Positions 13,099-15,455 of a stretch of DNA of 34,824 nucleotides are shown piece after piece. Position numbers and translations under genes: made by a program. The notes below the pieces were generated by a model that was given only the letters and a program-made list of their open reading frames with translations, did no database searches and was not told the origin of the DNA. Origin of the DNA: Luteitalea sp. (GTDB taxonomy: Bacteria; Acidobacteriota; Vicinamibacteria; Vicinamibacterales; CAVVIG01); NCBI GenBank assembly GCA_009380045.1, contig WHSN01000022.1:1-34824 (forward strand). The letters are read 5' to 3'. How positions within the stretch are numbered: position 1 is the stretch's first letter; every line of letters starts with the position of its first letter.

Positions 13099-13184
13099 GA
13101 AGCCTAATGTAGCGCATTCGTAGCCACATTGCAACCACGAAATGCTTGTTGACTCTGTAGCCCTTTTGTAGCTACAATGTGGCC
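13099..13184. promoter_or_regulatory. Divergent leaderless promoter pair with GTAGC-N6-GTAGC repeats
   Basis: Plus strand: TTGACT (13149-13154), 18 bp, TACAAT (13173-13178), with the transposase ATG at 13185 where transcription should start. Minus strand: TTGCAA, 17 bp, TACATT, with the GTG of the ribbon-helix-helix gene seven bases on. GTAGC occurs four times (13109, 13120, 13157, 13168), as two pairs with starts exactly 11 bp apart. Each pair lies in the core-promoter region of one of the two promoters. CAATGTGGC also occurs in inverted orientation near each start. This fits a symmetric operator bound on one face of the helix. Confidence 0.62.
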
Positions 13185-14432: not shown

Positions 14433-15455
14433 CTACGGAACAGAGATCCCCATGCGTTTCATGACCTCCAGCGCCAAGCCCTGAAATTCCACGGCTGCTT
14501 CATCGATCTGAGAGTAATACCCGCTATTGACGTGCCCTCGAAGTTTACCGATTGCGATGCCTAAGCTTTGCGCTTGCGGAGCGAGGCTGTGGAAGTCTTT
14601 GATCGAAGCGAGCTTGTTGCCGGCATGAGGCACCAGAGCAGGATCGACCGCTTTCAGATCCGCAACGATTCGGTCACGCACCCTAGGGGCAATCCTCGCC
14701 TCCCAATATTCGTGCGGCTTGGTCGCGATTCGGCCCGATGCGACCTTGTAGGCGGATGTGATGTAGCCCAAGTAGGTTGGGCACCCGTGAATGAGCGTCG
14801 CCCGGTCCGCTTTGGTAGCAAGTTGGCGGACTGTCTGCCAGTCGGTGATCCACTTGGCGAGCGATCTACCAACCGTTGAGAGCGCTCTCAGAGAAAACAA
14901 ATCGGCCGCCACCGGAGTCGCAAAATAGTCGGAGTCGAGCAGAATCGTCCGATTCAGTGGCCCGACGTTGGGCCCGACATCATACAGAAGGATGTCCACG
15001 CCGTAATCAGCTGCCATCTGTCTGGATGCCCGTGACAGAGCACACATCACGTCATAGTCACGACTCTTGCGAGCAAACGAGCCCGTCCAGGACGCAGGCA
15101 ATTCCTCCTCATACGTCGCCAAAAGCACATCGCCAGGACAGAGCAGTACTCCTTCTCGGACCTCGAATATCTCGACAGTCTTGATCGGCCCTTTGCCATC
15201 AACGACCGGCTTGATAGCGGACCAAATCGTTCCGCCGTCAACGTCGTCTGACTCACCAAGCAATTCGTCGAGCTTCTTCTCGTCCAGGTAAAACGACGTC
15301 AGGTTGCACTGCGGGTCCGCGTCAACCAGCAGAACCCGGAGCCCGAGATCCGCCAGTGAATCCGCCATGTTGATCGAGAGAGTGGTCTTCCCAACCCCGC
15401 CTTTGTGGTTGAAAAGGGCGAGCGATTTAGCCGACTTGCCGTTGGATTTGGCCAT
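14433..15455 (-). CDS. ParA/MinD-type P-loop ATPase
   Basis: 340 aa from ATG 15455; an in-frame ATG at 15482 would add nine residues and neither has a ribosome binding site. The deviant Walker A is KGGVGKTTL (Lys18 and Lys23) after LALFNH. Walker A' is VLLVDADPQCNLTSF (Asp45) and a Walker B-like strand is DILLYDVGPNVGP. These place it among dimerising ParA/Soj ATPases that bind DNA non-specifically in the ATP state and position plasmids, chromosomes or protein cargo. It lacks an N-terminal HTH, so it is of the short-N-terminus type. The C-terminal third is longer than in minimal Soj proteins and not recognised. No ParB-like gene is adjacent; the coiled-coil/winged-helix protein in the same element is the only candidate partner. 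It converges with the transposase (30-bp gap) and forms the right end of the element. Confidence 0.88.
   Translation of the reverse strand: MAKSNGKSAKSLALFNHKGGVGKTTLSINMADSLADLGLRVLLVDADPQCNLTSFYLDEKKLDELLGESDDVDGGTIWSAIKPVVDGKGPIKTVEIFEVREGVLLCPGDVLLATYEEELPASWTGSFARKSRDYDVMCALSRASRQMAADYGVDILLYDVGPNVGPLNRTILLDSDYFATPVAADLFSLRALSTVGRSLAKWITDWQTVRQLATKADRATLIHGCPTYLGYITSAYKVASGRIATKPHEYWEARIAPRVRDRIVADLKAVDPALVPHAGNKLASIKDFHSLAPQAQSLGIAIGKLRGHVNSGYYSQIDEAAVEFQGLALEVMKRMGISVP

Follow-up and report, generated by a model that had tools for sequence, protein, structure and literature searches.

A divergent promoter pair with candidate RHH operators and predicted leaderless starts between a small regulator gene and a transposase gene of Luteitalea sp.

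Introduction

How might the expression of a lone transposase be governed from a stretch of DNA that is hardly longer than two promoters? To our knowledge, the control of lone transposases is understood for few elements. The locus considered here lies on contig WHSN01000022.1 of a Luteitalea sp. genome assembly (GCA_009380045.1); the analysed stretch of 34,824 nucleotides (positions 1 to 34,824) is referred to below as the window. In it, 86 bp separate the GTG start codon of a gene for a small RHH protein (13098) from the ATG of a divergently oriented transposase gene (13185). An original prediction, made from the DNA alone, had interpreted these 86 bp as two back-to-back promoters that give leaderless mRNAs, with paired GTAGC words serving as a symmetric operator for an RHH repressor in a compact copy-control switch. 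Our comparative analysis makes it probable that this region is a divergent promoter pair under the control of one RHH autoregulator, from which leaderless mRNAs would be produced. The features of the region are compiled in Table 1.

Table 1. Features of the divergent intergenic region and its two flanking genes in the window
Feature	Position	Strand	Basis or remark
NikA-like RHH gene, 58 aa	12922..13098	-	GTG start 13098
Predicted RHH promoter, TTGCAA-N17-TACATT	13106..13134	-	8/12 consensus; position as in homologues
First GTAGC-N6-GTAGC pair	13109..13124	+	sequence
Operator-like palindrome TTCGTAGCCACATT, RHH promoter	13117..13130		matrix rank 2, 17.1 bits
Weak operator-like site, 11 bp off the 13117 site	13128..13141		matrix rank 4, 9.3 bits
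Predicted transposase promoter, TTGACT-N18-TACAAT	13149..13178	+	10/12 consensus; no Shine-Dalgarno (SD)
Second GTAGC-N6-GTAGC pair	13157..13172	+	sequence
Operator-like palindrome TTTGTAGCTACAAT over the transposase -10	13165..13178		matrix rank 1, 24.4 bits
Weak operator-like site, 11 bp off the 13165 site, overlapping the transposase start codon	13176..13189		matrix rank 3, 10.6 bits
Transposase gene, SWIM zinc finger and DDE domain, 405 aa	13185..14402	+	Pfam

Promoters and GTAGC words of the intergenic region

Both promoters of the original prediction are present at the spacings that it gave. On the plus strand, the -35 (13149-13154) and -10 (13173-13178) boxes end six nt in front of the transposase ATG, and an alternative GTG start of the transposase at 13179 would directly abut the -10. 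On the minus strand, the corresponding boxes (13134-13129 and 13111-13106) end seven nt in front of the GTG of the RHH gene; this promoter is weak, lies under the limit of our promoter scan and is absent from its list. The four GTAGC words (at 13109, 13120, 13157 and 13168) likewise form the two pairs with 11-bp steps, one in each promoter, that had been noticed. Dinucleotide shuffling of the 86 bp (20,000 rounds) gave four copies of some 5-mer in 0.12% of cases and two N6-spaced pairs of some 5-mer in 0.015%; nowhere else in the window do two N6 pairs of one 5-mer fall within 86 bp. One might attribute the clustering of the repeats to chance and regard each promoter as independent of the other, given that a single sequence, short words and a weak second promoter are at issue; we regard this as very improbable in view of the shuffle frequencies and of a matrix, built from other loci, that recovers the sites independently.

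The four GTAGC words all read in the same direction, and as direct repeats they consequently have no symmetry about the promoters. Of the symmetric operator that had been envisioned, what stands is the palindrome GTAGCTAC, which supplies the symmetry. Conservation of GTAGC-N6-GTAGC in homologous elements had been proposed as a check; when this was run, the arrangement turned up in no more than two partner-side promoters (L039 and L060), in both cases with one change. We have abandoned it as a conserved unit and replaced it by the palindrome WWTGTNGCTACAWW.

An operator-like palindrome in related RHH loci

The palindrome WWTGTNGCTACAWW is positioned over or beside the -10 in six further loci with RHH genes (L019, L032, L060, L026, L038, L039). 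An operator matrix was built from the other RHH loci only, with the window left out, and was scanned over the 34.8 kb; its four best matches all fall within this 86-bp region or at its border, and the next match elsewhere reaches 8.6 bits. Each promoter contains one strong site, and the third and fourth sites are each displaced by 11 bp from a strong one (Table 1). On the RHH side of the window, the best operator is located upstream of the -10, unlike in most relatives. Eight zinc-ribbon loci are without the operator (best score 9.6), and the 4.3-Mb genome contains a single instance of TTGAC with GTAGCTACA after it at the distance usual for a promoter.

On full scores, +11 and -11 are the best operator offsets; once overlapping positions are removed, the observed values are attained in 19 and 34 of 2000 shuffles, and offsets of 9, 20 and -13 are about equal. 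Since these other offsets do about as well, an 11-bp array was rejected as a family trait, and the 11-bp phasing is left as a weak feature.

The operator co-occurs with a particular type of RHH protein. A gene-blind search of viral contigs for TTGAC...TGT[A/G]GCTACA...ATG recovered L060, L039 (as L099), L038 (as L161), L066, L145 and L163, and the recovered sites adjoin an RHH-like protein with RxRx[TPS] in the presumed DNA-facing strand. Most of the 100 stretches from two operator scans were taken as chance, and only open reading frames that read as RHH were used; a small RxRx[TPS] open reading frame is adjacent to 9 of the 73 distinct sites, as compared with 104 of 2000 random positions. RHH proteins with other strands (L028, ExRxT; L042, RxLxT; L022) have other sequences at the place of the operator. 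This fit between strand and operator was noticed in a few cases and not predicted; if it is true, the RHH protein of L028 would prefer TGTCCGTACA and that of the window TGTAGCTACA. In L145 and L163, the RHH gene and the operator are followed by N6-methylase genes, a layout in the manner of a restriction-modification controller. A related RHH gene also stands before a methylase-like gene in L042, from the family of the host, where CCTAAT..ATTAGG near the -10 takes the place of GTAGCTAC.

The RHH protein and its candidate function

The RHH protein of the window exceeds the cut-off of the NikA-like family PF21983 (34.8 bits; cut-off 27), as do those of L032 and L163, and the protein from L019 is slightly under it (25.2 bits). 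Its GTG start aligns with the ATG of the homologues. The model of the monomer contains two helices, the strand not being formed; Foldseek neighbours of this model are mostly RHH proteins, with NikA, Arc and RHH antitoxins at the top and E-values above 0.1. Alignment searches within the phylum retrieved only L019 and the more distant L042, and a search among plasmids gave no match. An inverted repeat of 19 nt (13000-13018/13036-13054; 89% complementary) is situated within the RHH gene.

That a small RHH protein controls both itself and the transposase, as originally proposed, is in keeping with the divergent position of its gene and with operator-like sites in both promoters, from which we infer repression. 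Its best Pfam family and its closest solved structure by sequence, NikA (a match that is not significant), would also suit a protein that acts mainly as a DNA-architecture partner of the transposase, in the way NikA serves the relaxase at oriT; the palindromes would then be assembly sites and repression would be secondary. We consider such a role improbable, because the same RHH type and operator precede N6-methylase genes and adjoin an IS1-type transposase gene, where a shared recombination site is unexpected, and because the sites are found in promoters and not at ends of the element, none of which were detected. Autoregulation by the RHH protein is the more probable reading.

Predicted leaderless starts

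In 21 of 25 regulator genes (NikA-like RHH and zinc ribbon), the best promoter ends 5-9 nt 5' of the start codon, against 0.29 expected from shuffles and 11 of 255 control open reading frames, although the 25 loci are kin and these counts therefore overstate their independence. The distances were determined with one fixed promoter score across loci and a search span of 110 bp; for some loci, this span contains no promoter. Among the transposase genes, the -10 is located exactly six nt from the ATG, and no SD sequence is present, in the window and in L010, L032, L060, L122 and L127; at the other transposase loci it lies 22-34 nt from the start codon (52 nt in L008), mostly in combination with an SD sequence.

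The operator and the autoregulation could be correctly identified and the mRNAs still not be leaderless: transcription might begin at other promoters farther from the genes, or a number of nt ahead of the start codons, and the spacing would be a by-product of the compact overlap of operator, promoter and gene. Both promoters are consensus predictions, that on the minus strand being weak, and L019 and L026 possess the operator, yet have a leader before the transposase gene. Nevertheless, we hold this to be unlikely, since zinc-ribbon loci with unrelated operators have the same spacing on the regulator side, and since SD sequences are lacking precisely where the -10 is six nt from the transposase ATG. 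Leaderless starts are therefore still what we predict, with support from comparison: the promoter positions fit and are backed by the relatives. For the RHH gene of the window, whose promoter is weak when taken alone, the leaderless part of the original prediction leans largely on these relatives.

Long leaders with hairpins directly before a transposase gene that is not leaderless were observed in L021, L029, L030, L035, L026 and L028. The leader of L026 folds better than all 200 of its shuffles (z -3.8), and the others are less clear; such hairpins are possibly another layer of control.

A model for the control of the two genes

From the sequence data we infer the following course of events. 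RNA polymerase would start at, or a few nt from, the start codons of both genes (GTG for the RHH protein, ATG for the transposase), and two mRNAs with almost no leader would be formed. Each promoter contains a palindrome of the type TGTAGCTACA, located over the -10 in that of the transposase and between the -35 and the -10 in that of the RHH gene; an RHH dimer would bind there and would block both promoters, so that its own level would stay low and the transposase would be nearly off. When a naive cell is newly entered, neither gene would be blocked, and a burst of expression would last until the RHH protein has accumulated. Kept across several phyla, this layout seems to be a genuine control module of mobile DNA that can be exchanged, rather than a product of chance.

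A broader proposal, which we advance tentatively and would at present rate somewhat below even, is that regulator gene, promoter-embedded operator and leaderless start make up a transferable cassette that unrelated mobile genes have repeatedly captured, and that leaderlessness is selected. If this is true, the captors would include N6-methylase systems in addition to SWIM/DDE and IS1-type transposases; regulators of different kinds (RHH, zinc ribbon, perhaps DUF6471) would replace one another and the leaderless geometry would stay constant. Such constancy in the face of regulator swaps would mean that selection has favoured leaderlessness as a way of expressing genes as soon as a foreign cell is entered. 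Several lineages can be followed that have in common the operator word, the RHH type and the distance to the start codon; swaps of the regulator provide natural controls, and a reporter of about 200 bp makes the purpose of leaderless regulator mRNAs in mobile elements testable.

Relatives of the transposase and probable exchange of regulators

Relatives of the transposase with approximately 40-55% identity are found in Acidobacteriota, Eremiobacterota (Vulcanimicrobiota), Xanthobacteraceae, Abditibacteriota, a woesearchaeote and viral contigs, and most of them are accompanied by a divergent small regulator gene. Zinc ribbons (C..C then CPKCKSPYWNTPR) are frequent among these regulators; the regulator is an RHH protein in L019, L032, L060, L026, L028 and L022 and a DUF6471 protein in L003, and none was recognised for 8 of the 31 loci in our transposase tree. 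On this tree, the RHH label changes at least five times on well supported branches, which indicates that regulators were probably swapped more than once, gains and losses being indistinguishable. As judged from their sequences, L025 and L035 are a direct case of such an exchange: their DNA is 78% identical from the transposase ATG onward, and their upstream regions differ. In L019, L032 and L060, the gene divergent from a transposase of this family encodes an RHH protein, and the palindrome is found on either side. L039 has this RHH type and the palindromes too, next to a transposase of the IS1 type.

Zinc-ribbon genes divergent from the same transposase family (L002, L004, L007, L009, L010, L018, L025, L120, L122, L123, L127) have back-to-back TTGAC boxes and another motif, TATACC..TAGTAATATA, around both -10s.

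Comparison with known systems

The closest known counterparts are the regulators CvkR and Arc of type V-K CRISPR-associated transposons; the locus resembles known systems in its probable mode of action and is a member of neither the CvkR/Arc nor the PvuII type. According to the report on these elements (PMC9938897), type V-K CRISPR-associated transposons encode CvkR (MerR), or the RHH proteins Arc_1 and Arc_2, in reverse orientation upstream of cas12k, and the Anabaena cvkR and cas12k mRNAs are leaderless, with 82 nt between their start codons compared with 86 in the window. Further common traits are the small reverse-encoded regulator beside a transposon gene, the palindromic operator and the exchange of regulator types between elements. 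The partner, in contrast, is cas12k of a Tn7-like CRISPR transposon there and a lone SWIM/DDE transposase here, the CvkR motif AnnACATnATGTnnT differs from the window sites TGTNGCTACA, and leaderlessness was demonstrated there for CvkR (PMC9938897) and is not known to have been demonstrated for the RHH proteins. Having neither a cas12k partner nor the motif AnnACATnATGTnnT, the window locus falls outside the CvkR/Arc group. The mRNAs for the repressors lambda cI and Tn1721 tetR, to which the same study refers (PMC9938897), are leaderless as well. They have in common with the prediction for our locus that a mobile-element repressor is translated without a leader, but these are helix-turn-helix repressors with other promoters.

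Repressors of the Arc, CopG and NikA type resemble the RHH protein in the fold that Pfam and Foldseek predict for it, in palindromic sites and perhaps in one-turn steps; they differ in operator word and genetic setting. TTGAC...TGTAGCTACA with a start codon about 6-8 nt past the -10 also precedes presumed BrnT-like toxin genes in L045, L055, L073, L090 and L095; in L045, L073 and L095, the start codon is an ATG about 6-7 nt past the -10. BrnT-type toxin-antitoxin systems differ in having toxin and regulator in one operon.

C proteins are of the helix-turn-helix type. In C.PvuII, from a type II restriction-modification system, the C-dependent transcript starts at the initiator codon (PMC2997769). 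Like the putative regulator of our locus, it is a small autoregulator of a mobile gene system, and its controller transcript is leaderless, but it also activates, is part of one operon and has no transposase (PMC2997769).

The transposase and the question of mobility

The transposase carries a SWIM zinc finger (PF04434, 22.2 bits; cut-off 19.6) and a DDE_Tnp_1 domain (PF01609, 63.1 bits; cut-off 23). D209 or D213, D288, Y346, R349, E353 and K360 are invariant in 10 relatives, the last four forming the signature Y-2-R-3-E-6-K; catalytic residues and YREK signature agree with an IS5-like DDE enzyme. With the NCBIfam IS5 model NF033579 it scores 108.1 bits, below the cut-off of 140, and the SWIM finger is an extra part; our literature search found no paper on SWIM-finger IS5 transposases.

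We treat the mobility of the element as putative. The window contains no terminal inverted repeats above shuffles, no clear ones were seen in nine relatives (judged without shuffle comparison), and no empty site emerged from 60 relatives, across which the flanks are not conserved. The hallmarks of an insertion sequence, namely inverted repeats with a target duplication, and several copies or an empty site, were thus not found at this locus. Copy control, the function that had been envisioned for the switch, goes beyond the evidence, given the single copy in the genome, the lack of ends and the lack of an empty site.

Directly after the transposase gene lies a gene for a ParA-like partition ATPase (14433-15455, minus strand), which hints at plasmid-derived or integrated DNA. 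A viral contig of 123 kb (G578) carries three diverged copies of the transposase family (L026, L028 and L117).
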